Source: Branchiostoma floridae (taxonomy: Eukaryota > Chordata > Leptocardii > Amphioxiformes > Branchiostomatidae). Taken from it: a DNA stretch of 64,000 nt. The translations under genes were made by a program, and so were the position numbers. Shown here one piece after another: positions 20,943 to 58,300 of this stretch. The stretch spans positions 26,053,670-26,117,669 of the forward strand of contig NC_049981.1 in the NCBI RefSeq assembly GCF_000003815.2, read 5' to 3'. The notes under the pieces are model-generated. The model had not been told where the DNA came from. It searched no databases and worked only from the letters and a program-made list of their open reading frames with translations. Every line of letters begins with the position of its first letter. The stretch's first letter is position 1.

Positions 20943-21110
20943 GATCAAGATTGTACTGACTTGTGTGGCTTGTAGTTGTGGTAGTGTTGTTTGGGGATCT
21001 TGGTTATTTCATTTTCCGAGAGAGAAAGGGGGAACCTATTGAACGTATGACGTCGCCATTAGCATATGTGCGTACATACATCAGTTTTACTCAAGTGAAG
21101 TATAAATACA
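20943..21110 (+). pseudogene. folate-receptor-like last-exon relic (leftmost)
   Basis: Plus-strand similarity to the transmembrane/tail part of exon 3 of the array receptors: GTGGCTTGTAGTTGTGG, then GGTTATTTCATTTTCCGAGA and GAGAAAGGGGGAACCT, followed by the 3' flank (ATACATCAGTTTTACTCAAG) seen after the intact genes. The ectodomain is missing. It shows the array once began further left with the same order as today. Confidence 0.75.
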
Positions 21111-22024: not shown

Positions 22025-24878
22025 CTAAATCTCTGCCTTACGAGCATGGAGAACAACGAGCCCGTCACAGTCGGAGACGGTGTTGTTCTCAGGATTTGTA
22101 GCCGGGAACGACTTGATATTGATATCGACATATCCCGCCTTCTCAAATACTTCCCTCATGAAGCTGCTGTCGATATGAAGGGTAAAGAACTTGTAGCCAC
22201 CGAAGGAGTAGAAGGTCTGGTTGGTGACTCCTGCGAGAGCGAGCGTGCCTCCCGGCTTGAGTAGGCGGGTGATGTTGCGTACAGCAGCGGAGTAGGTCTC
22301 CCGGTCAGGGCACGCTACCTCCAGGCAAAAGCTTATAGTTACCACGTCGAACTGAGTACGACAAGATGTGGGCGTCAATAATGTGATCGAAAGCAAGATT
22401 CAGTCATCTACGTGCAGCCCTTTATACGGTTTTCTTTATGCCCATAAAGTATTTGACTAGGCACCGAATAAACAGAGAACCACTAGAAAGAAGTACTAAC
22501 GTTACATACACTACAACGTAGTACATTTTTATCGACAACCACTAAGCCTCATCCTATATATATGCTTAAAGATCATGTATAGGACTTCTATATCATACGT
22601 CCATTAGGATTTAACGTTAGACTGAATAATACTTTAAGCATCTGCGAATATATGTTACGTGTATCGAAACGTTTGGCTTAATAAATTCACCTGATATTGG
22701 AGAGGAGGAAAAGGTTCAGGCTTGGTAAGGTCGCAAGGAATGACTTCCTTTATAGCATCTCTGAGATGAGACTGGCGCGCTTCCCACGAGGAGCTGTACA
22801 AGAACGTGATCAACACGACAAATTTAACCCCTTCTTCTCAGAAAGCGATGTATGCAATATATTAACCTGGTAACCATAGGCTTGGCAGTGCTGGAAGTGT
22901 TTCTCCCCGCCCAGTTAATTAGTGTGCGATTGGGAATTTTTACGTGTTGGTTTCAATTTCCTCGCTCTATTAGAATGGCCGCATGGATCCGATGGAAAGA
23001 CAGGCCGTCAGAAACAGAAGCCATATGCTTGGAAAAGACATGGCCGGCTAAAAATATCTTAGCCGGCCATTTAGCATGGTTACCAGGCAAGGAACACTAT
23101 GCACTGCACGAAATACGATCTTAAAGCATATACTTAAATGCATACGCAAAGATTACATTTTCTTCCTTGATCATGGAAAACACACACATACACACACACA
23201 CAGTGTATATGCATGCTTTAAAGTATGTCAACAGATTAGAGTTCTTGCCAAACACAAGCTGAGAGACTCGAAATGTCGTCGTCATAAGTAAATTATCACA
23301 AAATAAGTTAGCTATCATAGGTTTATTGTTTTATACACTTTCATAGCAACACGGAATGAAAGCGGTCAGTTGTACGAGGGTGGATACGAACAATTGGTAA
23401 GCCTGAGCATGACCCGGAATTATTTGGTTCAGATTTCCAACCATAACTACACATAACAAAGTCTCCTACCAATGCCAGTCACATTTTACAACAACAACAA
23501 CATCAGCAGCAATTATCATCATTGTTTTACATACAGCGCTCTTTTCAACACAATTTTGAGTTTAATTATTTTTCCCTACTCATCGGATGCCCAAAAGTGG
23601 CTCACATGCAAGAAACATGATACTGTCAAATTTGGTGGACATGGAGAGAAGAAAGATTTGGTATGTACTATATATTTATGTATTCGACTTTTCTCACCAC
23701 TTTCTAAACTAACCAAAGACATCATGATTTATATATGACCTAAGGTGAACATAACGTCCTTGTTCGACCTGTTCCCAACAAGACAGCAAACACTCAAATA
23801 GCATACCTATCTCCTTCCAGATCAGCTACAAACTTGAAAAAGGGGGCCCAGTCGTGCATATCCGGGTCCTTCTTCACCCATTTCTCAATCTCGGTTCGGT
23901 TATTCTGGAATAAAAGGACAAATTTTATCAATATTTTTAACAAGATGGCGCGTGCATGACGTCATTTCCAGCATGATGGTGCCCATCCACGACGGCGAGG
24001 ACAAAAAGGTTTTGCTAGCATAAATCTGTATGCCACATACAACGCACAGACAGATTCAAGGTAACTCCCCAGCCAAAGCAAACTCCCTTCCACGGCATTA
24101 GAGATCCTTAGCCAACTAGCGAACAAGCCAAAAATAAAAGCCAGCCCCGCTCAAAGTCCAGGGGGCACGGCGAGAATCAAACTCGGGACCTCTACGCCAC
24201 ATAGGACACCAAACTTGGCTAACGCACGTTGTTTAACTTTGAGTGCTCCACATTTCTTCATCCACGAAAAAATGCATTAGGGAGTTTTAGTAACTAATCT
24301 GTGAACAATGTAGGGCACACGGAGCGAAACTCTCCTACACACATACCTCAATGTACTCTGCGCAGACGATCTCTGTACAGAACCTGCTGGCGCTGATCAG
24401 CTGATGAATAGTCGGGCCGCTCCCGACATCGAGCAGGCGACTTCCCGGTTTCAGACGACCTACACAACATTGAGAAGGTAATGTGATAACCGAGTACACT
24501 TAAAGCTTTACAGGCTTACAGTTACACGTTCGAAAGTAAAAGTGATTTTTCCTACTGTACGGGTACCGTCAAGTGAGGAGCAAATAATACCTCCTTGTCA
24601 TTGTTTAGGGGAAGACTGACGGACATTGTTGGTTGTGCCAACGCATACGCACGTACGCCCATATTATAAGAACGACGTGGCTGTACAAATATATTACTGA
24701 ACTGGGAAAATCAAGTCTCACCAGTTGAGTTGAAAATCTCGTGGAATTCTTTAAAAATCGGTGTGAGTGCCTCTCCGTCTTCATCGATACATTCTGGCGA
24801 AGTATAAAATGTCTTCAAATACGCCTTTGAACCAAACGTTTTGTGGTAGTCCGTGCCTTTTTGGATCGGTGCTGCCAT
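22025..24878 (-). CDS. NNMT/INMT/PNMT-family SAM-dependent N-methyltransferase, copy 1 (intact)
   Basis: Five exons, minus strand: 24722-24878, 24347-24459, 23807-23904, 22691-22793, 22025-22351, all GT/AG, joining to 265 aa (human NNMT has 264). The ATG at 24878 starts MAAPIQKGTDY. Exon 1 carries YHKTFGSKAYL (the family's N-terminal YxxxF...YL). Exon 2 has the SAM motif LLDVGSGPTIHQL (residues 61-73) and ends VCAEYIE with acidic Glu87. Exon 3 is [14 protein letters not shown]...DLEGD. Exon 4 has WEARQSHLRDAIKEV. Exon 5 has ACPDRETY, LLKPGG and KFFTL. The family transfers methyl from S-adenosylmethionine to small amines or pyridines in the cytosol. The segment after LLKPGG (AGVTNQTFYSFGGYKF) lacks the Asp that NNMT uses for nicotinamide, so the substrate is unknown. 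One extra codon precedes the exon 1 donor compared with other copies. Confidence 0.9.
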
Positions 24879-25289: not shown

Positions 25290-25500
25290 ACATTGGCATC
25301 GATCAAGATTGTAGTGACTTGTGTGGCTTGTGGTTGTGGCATTGCTGTCTGGGACTCTTGGTTCCTTTTCCAAGAGAGAAAGGGGCAACCTGTGGTCAAC
25401 AAACAAACTGGAGGTTCGACGTTTTAAAAATGTTGCGTAACATTGAACGTTTCACGTCTCCATTAGCATATGTGCATACATACATCAGTTACTGAATTGA
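25290..25500 (+). pseudogene. folate-receptor-like last-exon relic (second)
   Basis: Plus-strand remnant of receptor exon 3: GTGTGGCTTGTGGTTGTGGC, GGGACTCTTGGTT, GAGAGAAAGGGGCAACCTGT, then GGTCAACAAACAAACTGGAG matching the terminal FNKLE codons with a 4-base insertion, and the usual 3' flank. Signal peptide and ectodomain are absent. It sits head-to-head with methyltransferase copy 1, the same spacing plan as the intact units. Confidence 0.75.
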
Positions 25501-34302: not shown

Positions 34303-37230
34303 ATGGATGCCGTAACCTTTGTCGTCCTAGTCCTGCTGACTGGACCAGCCGTTCAGTCCGCAGACGTACCGTGCAGGACGTTCGAAGAAATCTACCCCAC
34401 CGGGAAGGAGCTGTGCGAGAAGATGTGGGACGACGCCTTCGTGTACGAGACGAACCTCAGCGTGGCCTTCACCATGTGGTTCTTTGAAGCCGAGAATCCA
34501 AATAACAAAGTGGCTGAGAGACTCGGATGGTCCTCACCGGTTGATGACTGTCATTTAGAGTACTTTCATAAGGTTTGTTCATGTAGAGTAAAACTACTAG
34601 TAATGGGTGGAGTTAATGTCGCCATCCCCTCACCACCACCAGTAAAGACGCTATCAATGTCACACATTTTGGGCCACTTCGGCGCTGAGTTTTAAGCCAG
34701 TAGCCTGAAATCTTAGCTTAACAAATTCACAAAACGGCTGTGAAATTCATTACCTTCGCCAAGAAGGTTATATTTTCAGTAGAGTTTATGTATGTTTGTG
34801 TGTGTGTGTGTGTGTAAGTGTGAGTGTAGAAGACCAGTATAACTCGAGAACGCTTAAAATCAACCAATTAAATGGATTGTATTGACATTTGGTATGTGGG
34901 TAGGTCTTGGTGAGACCAGAAAACGATTAGATTTTGGGCCCCCTAGCAACTTATTACGGTACGGCAGAGGAATTTCCTGTTCTGGACATGCTGTTGTCGT
35001 GATATGTAGATCTCGGGGCTGAGGTAAGTGGTGTAGGTATGGGCCCCTAGCGGCTTGTTTTGGAACTGCAGTGGCTAGTTTAGTGTCAGAACTTGAAAGG
35101 GAACACTAGTAACTCAAGATGGCATTGACGGATCGTCATGATTTTTTGATACGTCGATAGCTTCTTATAGTTAAATGTTACTCATGCAAATCCACATCTA
35201 ATTTACATAAATAATGAGGAGATTGTCTAACCCCGTTTTGTTCCATAATAGGACAATTGCAACATGTGCCATTGGTAACTGAGAAAGAGAATATTGATGG
35301 ATAGATTTTATGCAAATATAGGCCTAATTGGCATAATTGATGAGGAAATATTATGATCCCATTGTGGTAAATGACAGGATTTTTTACTTGTGGCATTTGG
35401 AAGTTATGTAAAGGTAAAAATTGAACCTCAATCATGCACATGAGGACCTCATTTGCCAATTATGCAAATGAGGACCTCATATGCATTAATTATGAGAAAT
35501 GCAACGAATACCTTCTTTCTTGCTGTAGATCTGCATACATCTGTTATTTGGGTGGAGGAGATGATCAACTAATATCAATTATGCAAGTGGTGAAGTTTAA
35601 AATTATTTGGCGAAGGTATTGAGTCGTGGAACTCTAGTTAACAATGTACTAAGTATCAAACAAGCTTATATTGGAAATGAAAAGACTCGAATCCACTCCC
35701 CTCTATCAGTTTCGCTCGTATGGTGCAACCCCATCAAAGCCAAACGTTTTTCCTCCTGACAGGAAGCTCCAGGACCAGAACCAGACAACTTCACGGAGTG
35801 CCATCCTTGGAAGGACTACTCCTGCTGTCACCAGGACACGGTGTCCTCCGTACAGAAGATCAAGGAAGCGTACGGCAAGGAATGGCACTGGGACCGGTGC
35901 GGTCCCCTCAGTTCTGCCTGTGAGCGCTTCTTCGTGCAGGAGGCCTGCCTGTACGAATGTGAACCGAACGCAGGTACTACAAAAATCGCCTCGGTTTATC
36001 TGTGAAGTTTTGAAAGTAACATATCTCTCTATCCATTCATTCAGCCAGCCATCCATCCATCAAGAACCTCCCCCCCCCCAGTTGTAATGTAATCTGTATT
36101 GATTACCTAATTTACTACTCTAATTCATTTGATATGGCACAAATAGGCCGGCCATATTGGTCTCACCCCTGCACTTTCTTTTTGACGAACTTTTTTGTTT
36201 TTGAAGTGTGCGAAATAAAACAAAGCCATCAAGAAAGACAATTGGGCCCGAGTCGGCTTAGCCTGCTGGAAAAAAATTGGACCTGGGACAACTCAGCCTC
36301 TGAGTTAAACTATGGACACACACCAACATAAAAAGACAACTGAAAAAAAAAAGAGTTCGGAGACCTCATATCTCCATGAAATAGTCTGATTATGTAAATG
36401 ATTTCATTTACATTTACATTATCTATGCTTGGTCATGTACATTATCTATGCTTGGTCATGTACACATTTAGATAACTTACACTGGCATAATGTTAATTAT
36501 GCAATCATTTACCATTTAGAAGGTAAATTATGGACGTATTTGCATAATTGATATCTGTTAATGTTCCACCAGCCACAAACTACGTATATGACAGGTATTT
36601 GAGTTCTACAATGGCGAACACCACAAATAAAGATTTCCCCCATTAATTATGCAAATTAAGTGCCAGTTTGCATAATTTGCACTTAATTGTGTATATCTTT
36701 GTCTAAGCTACCTACATACCAAATATCATCTAGATTGAGAGCGAGAGAGAGAGACAGACACATAGACAGACAGAAACACCCAAAACTATATCTCCATTTT
36801 TCATGGAGATAATAACACCATCTTCACGAAAGTAATGACGACTTGTATGTGAACTTTTCCAATCACGACGTGTACATATGAACTTCCAGGTTTTTACCGG
36901 AAATTCCCGGACCACGTCTACAACGACTCGGATCCGAACCACAACAAGTGGCAGATGGAGGGAATGCCCATCCGCGCTGACTACTGTGACGCCTGGTTCA
37001 GAGCGTGTCGGTACGACCGCTTCTGTGCAGCGGACAGTGGGAGCTATAGTTCATGTGCCAGGGAGTACGCCAAAGTTGATAACACAGGGGATAACGGGGG
37101 AAACGCTGGGCTTATTGCAGGGGTAGTCGTGGCTTGTGTGATTGTGGCAGTGCTGATTGGTACTCTTGGTTATTTCATTTTCCGAGAGAGAAAGGGCCAA
37201 CCTGTGTTCAACAAACTGGAGGCCGAATAA
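34303..37230 (+). CDS. folate-receptor-like type I membrane protein, copy 1 (intact, permuted domain)
   Basis: Three exons: 34303-34572, 35763-35973, 36890-37230, GT/AG borders, joining to 273 aa. The ATG at 34303 sits in a good context (ACCATGG); an upstream in-frame ATG at 34276 would spoil the signal peptide. Residues 1-20 are a signal peptide (VVLVLLTGPAVQS). Residues 24-76 (CRTFEEIYPTGKELCEKMW...ENPNNKVAERLGW) match the block that ends vertebrate folate receptors. Residues 91-161 (ECHPWKDYSCC, RCGPLSSACERFFVQ, ACLYECEPNAG) match its opening. Residues 162-206 (FYRKFPDHVYNDSD, DYCDAWFRACRYDRFC) match the middle. Residues 234-257 are a transmembrane helix, then tail FRERKGQPVFNKLEAE. There are 14 extracellular Cys and N-glycosylation sites NLS, NFT and NDS. 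The family binds folate or riboflavin at the cell surface; ligand here is unknown. Confidence 0.88.
34755..35633. repeat. AT-rich fold-back element with (GT)n in receptor intron 1
   Basis: It begins CCTTCGCCAAGAAGGTTATA, followed by a GT microsatellite (34795-34816) and AT-rich sequence with TTATGCAAATGAGG and ATTTGCATA words, and ends near GGCGAAGGTATTGAGTCGTG with AACTCTAGTT. The ends are inverted repeats (ACCTTCGCC/GGCGAAGGT). Starts of the same element are seen in the other two receptor genes at about 41158 and 51542. Confidence 0.6.
36350..36812. repeat. AT-rich fold-back element in receptor intron 2
   Basis: Same family as 32225-33045: GAGTTCGGAGACCTCATATC at the left, CTCCATTTTTCATGGAGATA at the right, with ATTATGCAAATTAAGTGCC inside. 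It is non-coding and absent from the corresponding intron of copies 2 and 3. Confidence 0.6.
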
Positions 37231-38735: not shown

Positions 38736-39062
38736 CTAAATCTCTGCCTTCCTAGCATGGAGAACAACGAGCCCGTCAAAGTCGGAGATAGTGTTGTTCT
38801 CAAGATTTGTAGCCGGGAACGACTTGATATTGATATCGACATATCCCGCCTTCTCAAATACTTCTCTCATGAAGCTGCTGTCGATAGGAAGGGTGAAGAA
38901 CTTGTAGTCACCGAAGGAGTAGAAGGTCTGGTTGGTGACTTCTGCGAGAGCGAACGTTCCTCCCGGCTTGAGTAGGCGGGTGATGCGGCGTACAGCAGCG
39001 GAGTAGGTCTCCCGGTCAGGGCACGCTGTCTCCAGGCACAGGCTTGTAGTTACCACGTCAAA
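38736..39062 (-). pseudogene. NNMT-family methyltransferase, copy 3: orphan exon 5
   Basis: A complete, undamaged last exon (acceptor CAG at 39065-39063, TAG stop at 38738-38736; 108 codons) with ACPDRETYSAAVRRITRLL, LLKPGGTFALAEV, KFFTLPIDSSFMREVFEKAG and ending HARKAEI. Exons 1-4 are not found between here and the next receptor at 40692. Homology to other units stops near 39300, where inverted-repeat DNA begins. Alone it lacks the SAM-binding motif, so it cannot encode an active enzyme unless spliced to exons elsewhere. Confidence 0.85.
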
Positions 39063-39755
39063 CTGAGCACAAGATGTGGGTGACTAGTTGATAAGAGTTT
39101 GTGTGGCTTTATCAAATACATGTAATATGTAAAATAAAATGCAATGTCACATTTATGTCTACAGACATCATTACATACAGACATAACACACCTGGTTTAT
39201 TTGGTGACGGTATGTGTTCGTGGAACTCTGTTTAAAAATACATTTTTTTTCTGGCCAACGTATTCAGATCGACAAAAATATAAAGGACCCACCAGAAAGA
39301 CGTACATTTTGTATATAAAGTCGAAAAGCGCACAAAACTCTAAAGCTAAGGGCACAACCCGCCTTAAGCTAAGGGCACAACCCGTCGTACATGCAATTTG
39401 TCCGTACGTTTATTTGGGAGTCCACGTCCACCACGTATTTCTCAAAATGTTCAGGCTGTACAGGGCAGGCGCGTCGCCCTTACGGGGGACGAATCCGCAG
39501 CCAGATAGCACACAACGTGTTGTCTGCACGTATTAGTTCTACGCCGTGTCTGCGTGCTCCAAAATCCGTTGGATTCCCTACGAGTTCGTACGGAGGCGGT
39601 ACTCACCACTTACGGATCCCAAAAGATTGCCCACGTTTTGGCACGTAGACAGCACGTATTTGCACGTACGGAGGGTTGTGTAGCCTCCATAGCAGGCTTT
39701 CTGGTTGTTGTTTTTTTGGCTCATAATGCACTTTTGCTGGCCATTTCTATTTGTA

Positions 39756-40691: not shown

Positions 40692-41191
40692 ATGGATGCC
40701 GTCATCTTGGTCGCCTTAGTCCTGCTGACTGGACTAGCCGTTCAGTCCGCAGACCTTTCTTGTAAGACGTTCGAAGAAATCTATCCCAGCGGGAAGGAGC
40801 TGTGTGAGAAGATGTGGGGCGACGGCTTCGTGTACGAGACGAACCTCAGCGTGGGCTTCACCATGTGGTTCTTTGAAGCCGAGAATCCAAATAACAAAGT
40901 GGCTGAGAGGCTCGGATGGCCCTCACCGGTTGATGACTGTCACTTACAGTCCTTACATAAGGTTTGTTTTTTGTAGAGTACAACTACTAGTAATGGGTGG
41001 AGTTTATATCACCCTCCATTCACCACTACCAGTAAAGACCCTGTCAATGTCACACATTCAGGGCCACTTCGGCGCTGAGTTTTAAGTAGCCTGAAATCTT
41101 AGCTATAGCTTAACAAATTAACAAAACGGCTGTGAAATTCATTATATTGTTTCATTACATTCGCCAAGAAGGTTATATTTTCGGTAGCGTT

Positions 41192-41241
<50 letters not shown>

Positions 41242-42549
41242 TGTGTCTGTGTGTGCGTAGAAGACCAGATATTACTCCAGAACGGTAAATAGANNNNNNN
41301 NNNNNNNNNNNNNNNNNNNNNNNNNNNNNNNNNNNNNNNNNNNNNNNNNNNNNNNNNNNNNNNNNNNNNNNNNNNNNNNNNNNNNNNNNNNNNATTACTC
41401 CAGAACGGTTAAATAGATTGTCTTGACATACTGTGATGTGATCCTTATGTTTATTGATGAAAACTGGTGAAGCGCCGAGTTGATATCCATACTACACGGC
41501 AAGGCACAGCTTTTTTTAAAAGCACTTGTTTCTCCTGGCAGGAAGCTCCAGGACCAGAACCAGACAACTTCACGGAGTGCTACCCTTGGAGGGACTACTC
41601 CTGCTGTCACCAGGACACCGTGCAGAAGATCAAGGAAGCGTACGGCAGGGAATGGCACTGGGAGCGGTGTGGTGCCCTCAGTTCTGCCTGTAATCGCTTC
41701 TTCGTGCAGCTGGCCTGTCTGTACGAATGTGAGCCGAACGCAGGTATTACAAAAATCACCTTGGTTTATCTGTGAAGTGTTGTTGTTAAGTAACATATCT
41801 CTCTGTCCATTCATCCAGCCAGCCAGTCATCCAAGAACCTCCTTCCCTAACAAGTTGTTATGTGATCTAATTCATTTCATATGGCACAAATAGGCCGGCC
41901 ATATTGGTCTCTGTCTCACCCCTGCACTTTCTTTTTGGTGAAACTGAACTTTGTGTTTTTTTAATTATGCGAAATAAAACAAAAACATAAAGAAACGGCC
42001 TTAGTTGGCATGACCACATTTGGACTCGGCTGGCTTTGCCTGCTGGAACAAAATTGGACCCGGGACAGTTCATCCTCTGAGATGAACTATGGTATAGTAT
42101 GGACACACACGAACTTAAAAAGACAAACCGAAAAAAATACCTCCATCTTCACGAAGGTAATGACGACTTGTATGTGAGCTTTTCCAATCACGACGTGTAC
42201 ATGTGAACTTCCAGGTTTTTACCGGAAATTCCCGGACCACGTCTACAACGACTCGGATCCGAACCACAACAAGTGGCAGATGGAGGGAATGCCCATCCGC
42301 GCTGACTACTGTGACTCCTGGTTCAGAGCGTGTAGGTACGACCTATTCTGTGGGAGTGGGAGTTATAGTTCATGTGCCAGGGAGTACACCAAAGTTGGTA
42401 ACACAGGGGATAACGGGGGAAACGCTGGGCTTATTGCAGGGGTGGTCGTGGCTTGTGTGATTGTGGCAGTGCTGATTGGGACTCTCGGTTTTTTCATTTT
42501 CCGAGAGAGAAAGGGGGAACCTTTGTTCAACAAACTGGAGGCCGAATAA
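40692..42549 (+). CDS. folate-receptor-like type I membrane protein, copy 2 (intact, permuted domain)
   Basis: Exons 40692-40961, 41542-41743, 42215-42549 join to 268 aa. The signal peptide (VALVLLTGLAVQS) is followed by the C-terminal-type receptor block (CKTFEEIYPSGKELCEKMWG...NPNNKVAERLGW), then ECYPWRDYSCCHQDT, WHWERCGALSSACNRFFVQ, ACLYECEPNAG, the FYRKFPDHVYNDSD/DYCDSWFRACRYDLFC block, a transmembrane helix at about 229-252 and tail FRERKGEPLFNKLEAE. It lacks three codons of copy 1 in exon 2 (SSV) and two net codons near the GSGSYSSC linker. The stop codon overlaps an AATAAA (42545-42550). The N gap in intron 1 does not touch coding sequence. Surface location is expected from signal peptide plus one helix; ligand unknown. 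Confidence 0.88.
41192..41262. repeat. (GT)n microsatellite in receptor copy 2 intron 1
   Basis: An almost pure GT run in the fold-back element fragment that starts at about 41158; it directly precedes the assembly gap and probably caused it. Confidence 0.85.
41294..41393. other. assembly gap (100 N)
   Basis: Exactly 100 N, the usual placeholder for unknown size. The bases on both sides are near-duplicates (ATTACTCCAGAACGGTAAATAGA and ATTACTCCAGAACGGTTAAATAGA, given as ATTACTCCAGAACGG plus tail), whereas the homologous intron of copy 3 has this sequence once (about 51668). The two contig ends probably overlap. Confidence 0.9.
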
Positions 42550-45650: not shown

Positions 45651-47014
45651 TTAAATCTCTGCCTTACTAGCATGGAGAACAACGAACCCGTCAATGTCGG
45701 AGATAGTGTTGTTCTCAGGATTTGTAGCCGGGAACGACTTGATATTGATATCGACATATCCCGCCTTCTCAAATACTTCTCTCATGAAGCTGCTGTCGAT
45801 AGGAAGGGTGAAGAACTTGTAGCCACCGACGGTGTAGAAGGTCTGGTTGGTGACTCCTGCGAGAACGAACGTACCTCCCGGCTTGAGTAGGCGGGTGATG
45901 TTGCGTACAGGAGCGGAGTAGGACTCCCGGTCAGGGCACGCTGCCTCCAGGCACAGGGTTGTAGTTACCACGTCAAACTGAGTACGTCAAGATGTGGGTG
46001 TAAGTAATATAATTTAATAAAGCTCGGTCATCTACGCCTTTATGCTGCAGCCCATTATACGTTTTTCTCTTGTGGTCAACGTATTCGACTCGAAACCTAA
46101 TAAACAGAGAACCACTAGAAAGAAGTACATTTTGTAAATGAAGCCGAAAAACGCCCAAAACACTTATATATGCCTAAAGATCGTGCATAGGACTTTTATT
46201 TTATACGTTCATTAGGATTTAGACTGAAGAACAAAAGGTTTATAGTATTGGTCATATATGTTACATGTATCGAAACATTTGGCTTAATAAATGAAATGTA
46301 AATAAAATATTCCATTGACCTCCTGATATTGGCGACGAGCGAAAGGTTCAGGCTTGGTGACGTCACAAGAAATAACTTCCTTTATAACATCTCTGAGATG
46401 AGGCTGGCGCGCTTCCCACGAGGAACTGAACATGATCAACATAACAAACCTTCTTCTCAGAAGGTGATGCCTGTACAGGTGTAATATATCTGGTAACCAT
46501 ATCAACGGGAGCTCCCTGGTGTCCGGTGCTGGAAGTCATTTATTAGGGCACCCCCGCCCAACTTATTAGGTCACGCCGGGGCGTTTTTACGCGTTTGTTT
46601 CAATAACTTGCTCATTATATCAATATAACTAGAAAGGCCACCTTTAAGATAGGCCGTCAGAAGAAGCCCTATGCTTGGTAAAACATAGCCAGCTAAAAAC
46701 ACCTTAGCCGGCCATGGATAATGGTCACCATAGGAACATGTATACACTGCACGAAATCCAATCTTTAAGCATACTTTAAAGCATGCGTAAAGATTGCAAA
46801 TATAAATATTATTGTTTACAAACCATCACGGTATGAAAGTAGCCAGTTGTATTTGTATGTCTAAGGCTCAATAAAGATGATTCTGATCTCTCTACGAGGA
46901 TGGATCAAAAAGTGCTGAGCCTGAGACTAACCCGGAATAAAGGAATTACTTGGTTCAAATTTCCGATCCGAACGTTTTGTGATAGTCCGTGCCTTTTTGC
47001 ACCGGTGCTGCCAT
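45651..47014 (-). pseudogene. NNMT-family methyltransferase, copy 4 (exons 2 and 3 deleted)
   Basis: Exon 5 (45651-45977) is intact, ending in TAA, with ACPDRESYSAPVRNITRLL, LLKPGGTFVLAGV and ending HASKAEI. Exon 4 (46320-46425) is intact, with WEARQPHLRDVIKEV, a GTCAAT donor and a shortened acceptor. The next homology is the first 40-odd bases of exon 1 (start codon 47014-47012: MAAPVQKGTDYHKT), which breaks off into unrelated sequence. Everything from codon 14 of exon 1 through intron 3 is gone, including the SAM motif. This is a deletion-type pseudogene. Confidence 0.82.
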
Positions 47015-51066: not shown

Positions 51067-51575
51067 ATGGATGCCGTCATCTTGGTCGCCTTAGTCCTGC
51101 TGACTGGACTAGCCGTTCAGTCCGCAGACCTTTCTTGTAAGACGTTCGAAGAAATCTATCCCAGCGGGAAGGAGCTGTGCGAGAAGATGTGGGGCGACGG
51201 CTTCGTGTACGAGACGAACCTCAGCTTGGGCTTCACCACGTGGTTCTTTGAAGCCGAGAATCCAAATAACAAAGTGGCTGAGAGGCTCGGATGGCCCTCA
51301 CCGGTTGATGACTGTCACTTACAGTCCTTACATAAGGTTTGTTTTTTGTAGAGTACAACTACTAGTAATGGGTGGAGTTTGTATCACCCTCCCCTCACCA
51401 CCACCAGTAAAGAAGTAAAGACCCTGTCAATGTCACACATTGAGGGCCACTTCGGCGCTGAGTTTTAAGTAGCCTGAAATCTTAGCTATAGCTTAACAAA
51501 TTAACAAAACAGCTGGAAAATTCATTGATATTGTTTCATTACATTCGCCAAGAAGGTTATATTTTCGGTAGCGTT

Positions 51576-51656
<81 letters not shown>

Positions 51657-52908
51657 AGAAGACCAGTATTACTCCAGAACGGTTAAATATATTGTCTTGA
51701 CATACTGTGATGTGATCCTTATGTTTATTGATGAAAACTGGTGAAGCGCCGAGCTGATATCCATACTACACGGCAAGGCACAGCTTTTTTTAAAAGCACT
51801 TGTTTCTCCTGACAGGAAGCTCCAGGACCAGAACCAGACAACTTCACGGAGTGCTACCCTTGGAGGGACTACTCCTGCTGTCACCAGGACACCGTACAGA
51901 AAATCAAGGAAGCGTACGGCAAGGAATGGCACTGGGAGCGGTGTGGTGCCCTCAGTTCTGCCTGTAATCGCTTCTTCGTGCAGCTGGCCTGTCTGTACGA
52001 ATGTGAGCCGAACGCAGGTATTACAAAAATCACCTTGGTTTATCTGTGAAGTGTTGTGAAGTAACATATATCTCTATCCATTCATCCAGCCAGCCAGTCA
52101 TCCAAGAACCTCCTTCCCTAACAAGTTGTTATGTGATCTAATGTTCAGCTCTAATTCATTTCATATGGCACAAATAGGCCGGCCATATTGGTCTCTGCAA
52201 GTCCTTGGTCTCTGTCTCACCCCTGCACTTTCTTTTTGGTGAAACTGAACTTTGTGTTTTTTTAATTATGCAAAATAAAACAAAAACATAAAGAAACGGC
52301 CTTAGTTGGCATGACCACATTTGGACTCGGCTGGCTTAGCCTGTTGGAACAAAATTGGACCCGGGACAACTCAGCTTCTGAGTTGAACTATGGTATAGTA
52401 TGGACACACACGAACTTAAAAAGACAAACCGAAAAAAAATACCTCCATCTTCACGAAGGTAATGACGACTTGTATTTGAACTTTTCCAATCACGACGTAT
52501 ACATGTGAACTTCCAGGTTTTTACCGGAAATTCCCGGACCACGTCTACAACGACTCGGATCCGAACCACAACAAGTGGCAGATCGAGGGAATGCCCATCC
52601 GCGCCGACTACTGTGACGCCTGGTTCAGAGCGTGTCGGTACGACCTATTCTGTGGGAGTGGGAGCTATAGTTCATGTGCCAGGGAGTACGCCAAAGTTGA
52701 TAATACAGGGGATAACGGGGGAAACGCTGGGCTTATTGCAGGGGTAGTCGTGGCTTGTGTGATTGTGGCAGTGCTGATTGGGACTCTTGGTTTTATCATT
52801 TTCCGAGAGAGAAAGGGGGAACCTTTGTTCAACAAACCAGTCGAAGGGCCAAGCATTGAACATTCGGTTCTACTTCCGGGGTTTTCTAAGACGGCACAGA
52901 TCACGTAG
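51067..52908 (+). CDS. folate-receptor-like type I membrane protein, copy 3, transposon-altered C-terminus
   Basis: Exons 51067-51336, 51816-52017 and 52517-52908. The first two exons are almost identical to copy 2 (changes include NLSLGFTTWFF for NLSVGFTMWFF). Exon 3 keeps the FYRKFPDHVYNDSD/DYCDAWFRACRYDLFC block, the transmembrane helix and FRERKGEPLFNK. Then at 52838 the transposon begins, so LEAE-stop is replaced by PVEGPSIEHSVLLPGFSKTA plus three residues and a TAG at 52906-52908; predicted length 287 aa. The normal ending (CTGGAGGCCGAATAA) is displaced to 54946-54960. Signal peptide, permuted ectodomain and helix are intact, so a surface protein may still be made, with a new cytoplasmic end and a new 3' UTR. 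Confidence 0.8.
51578..51655. repeat. (GT)n microsatellite in receptor copy 3 intron 1
   Basis: An almost pure GT run of about 75 bp, longer than the corresponding runs at 34795 and 41192, as expected of a mutable repeat. Confidence 0.9.
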
Positions 52909-55324: not shown

Positions 55325-58300
55325 CTAAATCTCTGCCTTACAAGCATGGAGAACAACGAACCCGTCAAAGTCGGAGATAGTGTTGTTCTCAGGATTTGTA
55401 GCCGGGAACGACTTGATATTGATATCGACAAACCCGGCCTTCTCAAATACTTCTCTCATGAAGCTGCTGTCGATAGGAAGGGTGAAGAACTTGTAGCCAC
55501 CGACGGTGTAGAAGGTCTGGTTGGTGACTCCAATGAGAACGAACGTGCCTCCCGGCTTGAGTAGGCGGGTGATGTTGCGCACAGCAGCGGAGTAAGTCTC
55601 CCGGTCAGGGCACGCTGTCTCCAGGCTCAGGCTAGTAGTAATCACGTCGAACTGAGTACGCCAAGATGTGGATATAAGTAATGTCATTTACGGTACAACT
55701 CGGCGTTTTACGCGTTTCTTTGCAGCTTTATATGCGTTTTGTTCTTGCCACTAACGTTTTCACTAGATAGAACTACATTTTGTGATGTTTTGAAGCCGAA
55801 AAACACCCAAACCACCAAACGTCACCCTATATATACCTGAAGATTAGGTTTTCTTTATACACATGTACTTCCATGGAGATTTAGATTGAATAATACTCAA
55901 GAAATGAGCGAAAGAAGGTATATTTCTATTGGTTAAATACGTTACGCGTATCGAAACGTTTGCCTTGATAAATGAAATATAAAACAAAAAACATTCCATT
56001 CACCTCCTGATATTGGCGAGGAGCGAAAGGTTCAGGCTTGGTGACGTCACAAGTAATGACTTCCTTTATAGCATCTCTGAGATGAGACTGGCGCGCTTCC
56101 CACGAGGAGCTGTACAACAACAACATGACAAACTCAGAAGGTGATGTCTGTGATCTGTTAGCCTGGTAACCAGACCATCGGGAGCTCCCTGGTATCTCGG
56201 AGGTGCAGGTCTTGTCCCCCCGCCTAGGTCATTAAGGCCCCCTCTCACTTGACGTGCGGCACGCTTGCGGCATTGCTGCGTTCGTTCACTGCGTCACTGT
56301 NNNNNNNNNNNNNNNNNNNNNNNNNNNNNNNNNNNNNNNNNNNNNNNNNNNNNNNNNNNNNNNNNNNNNNNNNNNNNNNNNNNNNNNNNNNNNNNNNNNN
56401 NNNNNNNNNNNNNNNNNNNNNNNNNNNNNNNNNNNNNNNNNNNNNNNNNNNNNNNNNNNNNNNNNNNNNNNNCGCCAGTATAGTCAGCACTGACGGCACA
56501 TGCGCACGTCAAGTGAGAGGGGGCCTTTAGCGCAAGCGGGGAAATTTTTACGGGATGTTTCTTTTCGGGTGCTACAACAACTCTTAACCGGCTATTAAGC
56601 TGGTCACCAGGCTATGAACACATTGCGCGGAATCCAATGTTTTAGCATACGTTAAAGCAAGGATTTTAATAAAGAAGGAGATAGTTTATATGCATGTTTT
56701 TGCCACGCGCGTGAATAACATCCTTGATAAGATCATGCGTATAGCATGCTTTTAAATATGCTAACAGATTGGGTGTAGTCTGACATCTGTTTTGACAAAT
56801 ACAAGATGAATCAATGACTCGTATGCCAACGTCGTCATAAGGAGGTTCTTTCAGCAGAGTTAAGTGCCAAGATTCTGTGAGTTTTGGTTATCAAAATAAT
56901 ATAGCGCATAGCAAACATAGTTTTATCGTTTACAATTGTCCGCACACTTCTGTCCGCATACGCTGCCGAAATCCAAAATCCCAAACCGGTGCGGTCCAGC
57001 TGGATAACTTCGCATTGTTGCACCAACCGGATAATTGCACAAAACACGCTGGCAAATGTAGTGTGCAATTAAACGACTTCTACTGTATACTCGTACTAAG
57101 TACTCGTTTGACCTTGAGCGAACATAACGTCCTTGTTTGACCTGTTCCCAACAAGACAGCAAACACTCAAATAGCATACCTATCTCCCTCCAGATCAGCT
57201 ACAAACTTGAAAAAGGGGGTCCAGTCGTGCATATCCGGGTCCTTCTTCACCCATTTTTCAATCTCGGCTCGGTTATTCTGGAATTAAAGGACAAACTCTA
57301 GCACTATTGTGACCATGCTAGGAGAGATTAGCAACAAAATCATTCATACCTCTTTGCGATTGGCTGTCACGGATATGAGTATTTCTTAACAAGATGGCGC
57401 ATGCATGACGTTATTTCCAGCATTGTGGCGCCAATCCACGACGACGAATACAAAATAAGTTTTGCTATTGTAAAAAAAAAAAAAAAAAACTATACACATA
57501 CTTTAGGAAGTGAAAGACTTTAATACGCTTTCATTCCCTGAGGAACAGGAAGTATCATAGTGAAAAAGTATGTGTTTTAATCCGGGAGCTATTGTAAAGC
57601 TACTTCATGTACGGCATCATAGAGCATCGATGGTGGTAGATAATACTTTAATAGTTAAGGCCCCCTTCCTACCAGACGAGGTCGCTAGACACGTATGGCG
57701 ATCCCCAATCGAAGCCCAGCAAACGTACTGAGACCAAAGCTTGGATTTGTGATTTCATAATTGGAATATGACACCAGATACAAAAGTAAGATAGGCTACA
57801 AAAGAAAAGACGACAAAACACAGAAATCGTAAAAAATCGTTCTTTATCTATCAAAGTCGTTGAGCGATCTGAGAAATATTTGGTCGCTCAGCGGACGCAG
57901 CCCGAGTGACTGAACTAGTGACAATGGCCGGGGTATATATTTTGTTAATCTTTTAGTGCTTCACCGATTTGACCATTAAACAAACAGATTGCAGGAAGGA
58001 GTTTTAGAAAAGAATCTGCATGTGGACAACGTAGGACACAGCCGACGCTCCCCTGAGCGTACCTCAGTGTACTCAGCGCAGACGATCTCTGTACAGAACC
58101 TGCTGGCGCTGATCAGCTGATGAATAGTCGGACCGCTCCCGACATCGAGCAGGCGACTTCCCGGTTTCAGCCGACCTACACAGCCGATTGGGAATGAAAT
58201 AGTGATAAAGGTTCAGTTGGAGAAAGATTTAGCATTCACTTTCGAAAGTAAAAGTATTGTTCCCAACATTACCTTATCCTTAAACTTCCCTCGTTCAGTT

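Follow-up and report, generated by a model that had tools for sequence, protein, structure and literature searches.

Lancelet genes predicted to encode a naturally circularly permuted folate-receptor domain

Results

Three tandem genes carry folate-receptor blocks

The window (the whole 64,000-nucleotide stretch of Branchiostoma floridae DNA that was analysed, on contig C3) contains three genes, W1, W2 and W3, arranged in tandem on one strand and sharing the same layout:

34303-37230, + strand: W1 gene, three coding exons, 273 amino acids plus stop
34303-34572, + strand: W1 exon 1, with a signal peptide followed by the C-terminal (LC..MW..NPN) Folate_rec block, a linker and the ordinary N-terminal start (C83..HK90)
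35763-35973, + strand: W1 exon 2, PGPE..PW..CC..CLYEC.PN block, Folate_rec 67.9 bits alone
36890-37230, + strand: W1 exon 3, with the C..W..C..C block and the final disulfide loop, then a stalk, a transmembrane segment and a short tail before the stop
40692-40961, + strand: W2 exon 1
41542-41743, + strand: W2 exon 2
42215-42549, + strand: W2 exon 3
51067-51336, + strand: W3 exon 1
51816-52017, + strand: W3 exon 2
52517-52908, + strand: W3 exon 3, with a tail beyond FNK unlike that of W1 and W2

Both W1 introns are GT-AG, the first in phase 0 and the second in phase 1, and the Folate_rec motifs quoted for W1 in the original prediction are present in this three-exon reading. The product runs from a signal peptide (a hydrophobic leader) through an ectodomain to a transmembrane segment; it has three N-glycosylation sequons, and the hydrophobic segment near its C-terminus covers residues 235-253 (Kyte-Doolittle 2.97).

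Other features of the window were recorded. The similarity of W3 to W1 and W2 stops at 52837, after FNK, and its stop codon is supplied by other sequence (to 52908). NNMT/PNMT/TEMT-like methyltransferase open reading frames on the minus strand (22028-22399, 38739-39083, 45654-45986 and 55328-55687) recur around the receptor genes; two of the four were scanned against Pfam and both matched. It looks as if each receptor gene and its opposite-strand methyltransferase had been duplicated together as a pair. Relics of a transmembrane/tail exon on the plus strand (20960-21040 and 25308-25413), with no receptor exons found adjoining them, are probably decayed older units of the array.

The C-terminal block of the domain comes first

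A phmmer search against PDB sequences matched W1 residues 85-208 to residues 12-127 of a folate receptor beta chain, and W1 residues 20-72 to folate receptor beta residues 144-200 (i-Evalue 2.2e-4). Against four folate receptor alpha chains among the matches listed, the latter stretch scored weakly (i-Evalue 0.44-0.57). W1 matched the Pfam family Folate_rec (PF03024) in two stretches (121.5 bits, E 4.4e-35). Whole-protein Pfam scans covered W1 and two genes described below, P9 and P2, all of which passed the curated cut-off of 29.8 bits (121.5, 127.7 and 130.9 bits, respectively). W1 exon 1 alone matched profile positions 133-162 with 22.7 bits (E 1e-4), which is under that cut-off. Scored with a model of four ordinary-order receptors, this first block reached 31.5-38.5 bits in W1-W3, P9 and P2, against 12.3 bits for the best shuffled version (1000 shuffles per gene, 774-887 of them with a reported score). 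A chance likeness was thus ruled out.

The ordinary N-terminal start of the domain (FOLR1 C37, HHKEKPGPE) corresponds to C83..HKEAPGPE in W1, so that exon 1 holds the C-terminal block, then a linker of about 11 residues and then the ordinary start (C83 to HK90). The splice sites are therefore not the block borders. Part of the original prediction was that the last block of the domain had moved to the front in an exon of its own: the position was correct, but the exon is shared with the ordinary start. The ordinary PF03024 block order is found in none of the five genes, all of which are rotated, and, as had been proposed, the three array copies share one order.

Related genes elsewhere in the genome

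Genome searches were carried out on a 513.4 Mb assembly of 431 contigs, and the match counts given here are lower bounds. The following genes were found outside the window:

Contig C9, locus L011, - strand: P9, permuted gene, single copy on its contig
Contig C2, locus L012: P2, permuted gene, single copy on its contig
Locus L013 from 5640 through L014, C2:24651639 onward: gene T, four Folate_rec domains in ordinary order

Together with W1-W3 there are at least five permuted genes on three contigs. All ten of their introns are GT-AG, and the two intron positions and phases match in all five. The P9-region search of the genome gave at least 13 matches: five exon-1 copies, five exon-2 starts, two ordinary genes (E 0.0016-0.0019) and one match at C7:903231 with E 8.7. 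A search with an ordinary C-terminal block recovered the ordinary lancelet receptors Can7 and Can6, the five permuted copies and C2:1847945 at E 0.23.

Could the order be an artefact of an array whose true genes consist of exon 2, exon 3 and the exon 1 of the next copy, restoring the ordinary order? The borders of three tandem copies on one strand could be placed otherwise, but exon 1 opens with an ATG and a hydrophobic leader, W1-W3 exon 3 closes with a transmembrane segment and a stop, and mis-drawn boundaries cannot explain the order because P9 and P2, single-copy on other contigs, each have, within their 9.9 kb loci, a single significant C-terminal block that precedes the remaining blocks; this explanation is hardly credible.

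An alternative is that the genes encode two partial domains of a multidomain protein, each completed to an ordinary domain by missing upstream or downstream exons, and the presence of the four-domain gene T in the same genome lends it some weight. The extra block that this would require, named in the original prediction as the observation to look for, was sought. Among 2196 window open reading frames of at least 20 amino acids, only the nine W1-W3 exons gave clear matches to Folate_rec blocks, and the next-best frame scored 6.5 bits (E 0.93). No extra significant Folate_rec block was found in the 9.9 kb loci beside P9 and P2, except an exon-2 relic in P9 intron 1. The three parts jointly supply one domain, once, and we consider a multidomain protein very unlikely. 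The relic itself (L011:5075-5143, - strand) is a decayed duplicate of the first part of exon 2.

A single rotation restores one continuous domain

A profile was built from FOLR1, FOLR2 and two lancelet receptors of ordinary order, and all rotations of the five permuted ectodomains were scored with it. In native order, the highest-scoring domain of the five genes reached 80-90 bits, and a second, separate one 27-34 bits. At the best rotation each gave one continuous domain (W1, 120.7 bits; W2, 112.3; W3, 110.1; P9, 120.7; P2, 122.9), starting 3 to 7 residues upstream of the C83 equivalent in all five genes, with neighbouring rotations tying. As controls, Can6 scored best unrotated, and unrotated FOLR1 tied with rotations by one or two residues; since both sit in the profile, they control for the method and not for homology. 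The Pfam comparison, made for W1 only, agreed. Cut just after C83 and rotated, the W1 ectodomain matched in one stretch (profile positions 6-162 of 172, 131.1 bits), against two stretches and 120.2 bits in native order. A single-point rotation thus gives one near-full match in all five genes by the scan, and in W1 by Pfam. The rotation point lies in the loop between the equivalents of FOLR1 C169 and C175, inside an ordinary exon. Three of the weaker Folate_rec loci, L015, L016 and L017, reached at best 16.5, 10.5 and 6.4 bits with the same profile; the block order of L016 looks ordinary, and in principle L015 and L017 could hide other forms.

Collectively, the permuted order proposed in the original prediction has strong sequence support. 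It recurs in five genes across three contigs, and the rotation scan, the lack of an extra block and the cysteine pattern described below all agree with it. We put at roughly 85% the probability that at least five lancelet genes encode a naturally circularly permuted folate-receptor domain, the permutation being encoded in working genes.

The missing cysteines are predicted partners

FOLR1 has 16 cysteines and the permuted ectodomains have 14 in all five genes; the cysteine at FOLR1 position 189 is taken by sequence. The equivalents of C135 and C209 are both absent in all five, replaced by R or W and by A or G, respectively. Printed disulfide numbers for FR1 were not found in the literature searched, and the generic pattern of pairs given for the folate receptor domain in the accessible part of the ECOD paper was used instead. 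It includes C8-C12; it also prints C5 twice, an apparent slip, and we read the pair concerned as C2-C6. By our own mapping, C8-C12 corresponds to FOLR1 135-209, and therefore one whole disulfide, and no half one, has been lost. Two random cysteine losses would hit partners with a chance of 8/120 (about 0.07); nor do the five genes count as independent cases. Cysteines for seven of the eight disulfides are present, the C169 equivalent being assigned by order, in a gap column of the alignment.

We take the pairings 89-175 and 152-169 to be two of the seven kept disulfides, and W1 C24-C136 to be the FOLR1 pair 89-175. The kept pairs W1 C24-C136 and C38-C193 would pin the moved block to the core. 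We infer that the protein adopts the folate-receptor fold, its old ends linked by about 11 residues and its new ends opening in the C169-C175 loop, and that seven of eight disulfides are retained, two of which would tie the moved block to the core. The order could also be real without the chain closing up: the moved block might complete a neighbouring molecule (a swapped dimer), or the protein might adopt another fold. The shortness of the link in W1 speaks for this, but the moved-block cysteines expected to pair with the core are retained, and the sole two lost cysteines are mutual partners by our mapping; we regard such an arrangement as rather improbable.

Loss of folate contacts and a predicted change of membrane anchor

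The accessible text of PMC4947182 names nine folate-contact residues of FR1. All five permuted genes retain Y85 and W171, P9 alone retains S174, and the other contacts are changed or gapped, so the permuted genes lack the set of contacts of a functional receptor. The ordinary lancelet genes retain more of them (6/9 in Can6 and 7/9 in Can7). Because most of the nine FR1 contacts are gone, folate binding by the permuted proteins appears unlikely.

A hydrophobic leader is found in all five permuted genes and a transmembrane segment in four, the exception being P2. The modelled last exon of P2 (L012:5557-5810) ends without such a segment, and P2 may be a secreted form or may have a missing exon. 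Since the anchor now exits at the new end of the chain, the domain would turn another side towards the membrane than an ordinary receptor does.

Constraint and phylogeny

Pairwise dN/dS was estimated by NG86 over the codons preceding the transmembrane segment, for the 10 pairs of the five permuted genes. Ratios were 0.10-0.39 in eight pairs, and dS was undefined in the other two. Within the array they were 0.29-0.39 and between loci 0.10-0.13; between-locus dS was 1.7-3.1, and with dS above 1.7 in 5 pairs the ratios are rough. Identity between W1 and W2 was 0.93 and 0.96 in exons 2 and 3, against 0.91 and 0.89 in introns 1 and 2 (best local intron alignments). Exon 1 (0.91) was no better conserved than intron 1 (0.91), and between W2 and W3 exon 3 (0.966) was slightly below intron 2 (0.972). 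The permuted family looks constrained, and its intact frames, splice sites and constraint, as read from the DNA, are those of working genes.

In an unrooted maximum-likelihood tree of 13 rotated domains, which does not fix the order of splits, the permuted genes formed one clade (100/100) and the domains of the tandem gene another (99.7/99). Vertebrate and ordinary lancelet receptors were split from the permuted and tandem clades (98.5/99). Permuted sequences were 0.26-0.31 identical to tandem domains and 0.28-0.35 to ordinary receptors.

Intron positions and the tandem gene

The ordinary lancelet genes Can6 and Can7 have four coding exons, with introns between NQ or QQ and C, after GPWLVP/VK, and between TS and G. 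The permuted genes have a phase-0 intron between HK and E (or D, T) and a phase-1 intron between NA and G. Neither coincides with any of the three ordinary introns, and the cut falls within an ordinary exon. Exon movement, one of two origins suggested at the outset, finds no support in these positions, which rule out exon shuffling along splice sites.

Gene T, a putative gene whose splice sites were read by frame and consensus only, has four Folate_rec domains in tandem, followed by a stretch rich in histidine and a match to CTHRC1_C. Its exons cross the domain borders, spanning the C-terminal block of one domain and the start of the next. Domains 3 and 4 have a phase-0 intron after HK that matches the first permuted intron. 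Another intron lies between CRTF and the LC block, a position within permuted exon 1. Gene T differs from the permuted genes in its ordinary-order domains, in what follows them and in its other introns.

This four-domain gene with a common intron favours, but does not prove, the second suggested origin, in which a tandem duplication was followed by loss of the outer halves. Because gene T shares the HK phase-0 intron in two domains, duplication, fusion and trimming is the route that we favour, and we lean towards a tandem-domain stage in the origin of the permuted genes. Most likely there was one event, in which two duplicated domains fused and then lost their outer halves. Against a tandem stage, the common intron is a single position, the CRTF-LC intron of gene T falls within permuted exon 1, and the permuted sequences are as far from the domains of gene T as from ordinary receptors. 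Retroposition or another rearrangement of an ordinary receptor, with no tandem-domain stage, would fit the absence of all three ordinary lancelet introns from the permuted genes. It appears unlikely, if less so than the other alternatives considered here, as the intron shared with gene T (domains 3 and 4) is in keeping with a tandem stage.

Discussion

The permuted genes have the blocks of the FOLR1/FOLR2 domain (PF03024), 14 of its 16 cysteines and 28-31% identity after rotation. They differ in being rotated, in lacking cysteines 135 and 209 and in having most of the nine folate contacts changed. FOLR1 and FOLR2 are GPI-anchored, whereas the permuted genes have a transmembrane segment (4/5) instead of a GPI signal. 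Can6 (L009) and Can7 (L010), from the same genome, have the ordinary order and other intron positions.

JUNO (IZUMO1R) is described, in the parts of the reports available, as a surface recognition protein that has the folate-receptor fold and has lost folate binding, with eight disulfides conserved with folate receptors (PMC4947182), seven of them superimposed in another comparison (PMC4751342), and as mammal-only (PMC4807442). The permuted family would resemble it in fold, lack of folate binding and surface recognition. It differs from JUNO, which has the ordinary order and a GPI anchor, in being rotated. The permuted protein is probably a variant of a known fold and a surface receptor without folate binding. 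By analogy with JUNO, we tentatively suggest a role in cell-surface recognition of another ligand or protein, and not in folate uptake.

FrLRR and the BfFR-like genes come from the same genus (PMC10199209, JBC 2023), and FrLRR is described, in the text available, with few folate-binding sites, like the permuted family. The residue positions reported there fit, in our interpretation, the ordinary order, and we ruled out that these amphioxus genes are the permuted ones. Locus L016, on contig C13, has a leucine at FR1 D81, as the same text reports for FrLRR, which supports FrLRR being distinct from the permuted genes. The accessible text of this paper, the one on amphioxus folate receptors among the results listed, contains no mention of permutation, and that of papers on HHIP and fertilization proteins nothing on it. 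No report of a permuted folate receptor was found among the top results of searches of the open-access literature.

To our knowledge, circular permutations that arose naturally have rarely been documented in disulfide-rich receptor domains of animals. It is possible, and we propose it with less than even confidence, that a single ancient permutation, reached through a tandem intermediate and kept by selection, re-hung the domain by its other face and founded a new class of lancelet surface receptors that do not bind folate. The class is perhaps wider, because the permuted clade lies outside the vertebrate and ordinary lancelet receptors in the unrooted tree.

The ordinary, tandem and permuted forms occur in one genome, which makes the route of duplication, fusion and trimming testable. 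A small lancelet gene family appears to carry a disulfide-rich receptor domain that has been rearranged in nature. It would be an example of a receptor whose orientation changed with the fold unchanged, since the rotated order should alter how the domain is seated on the membrane.
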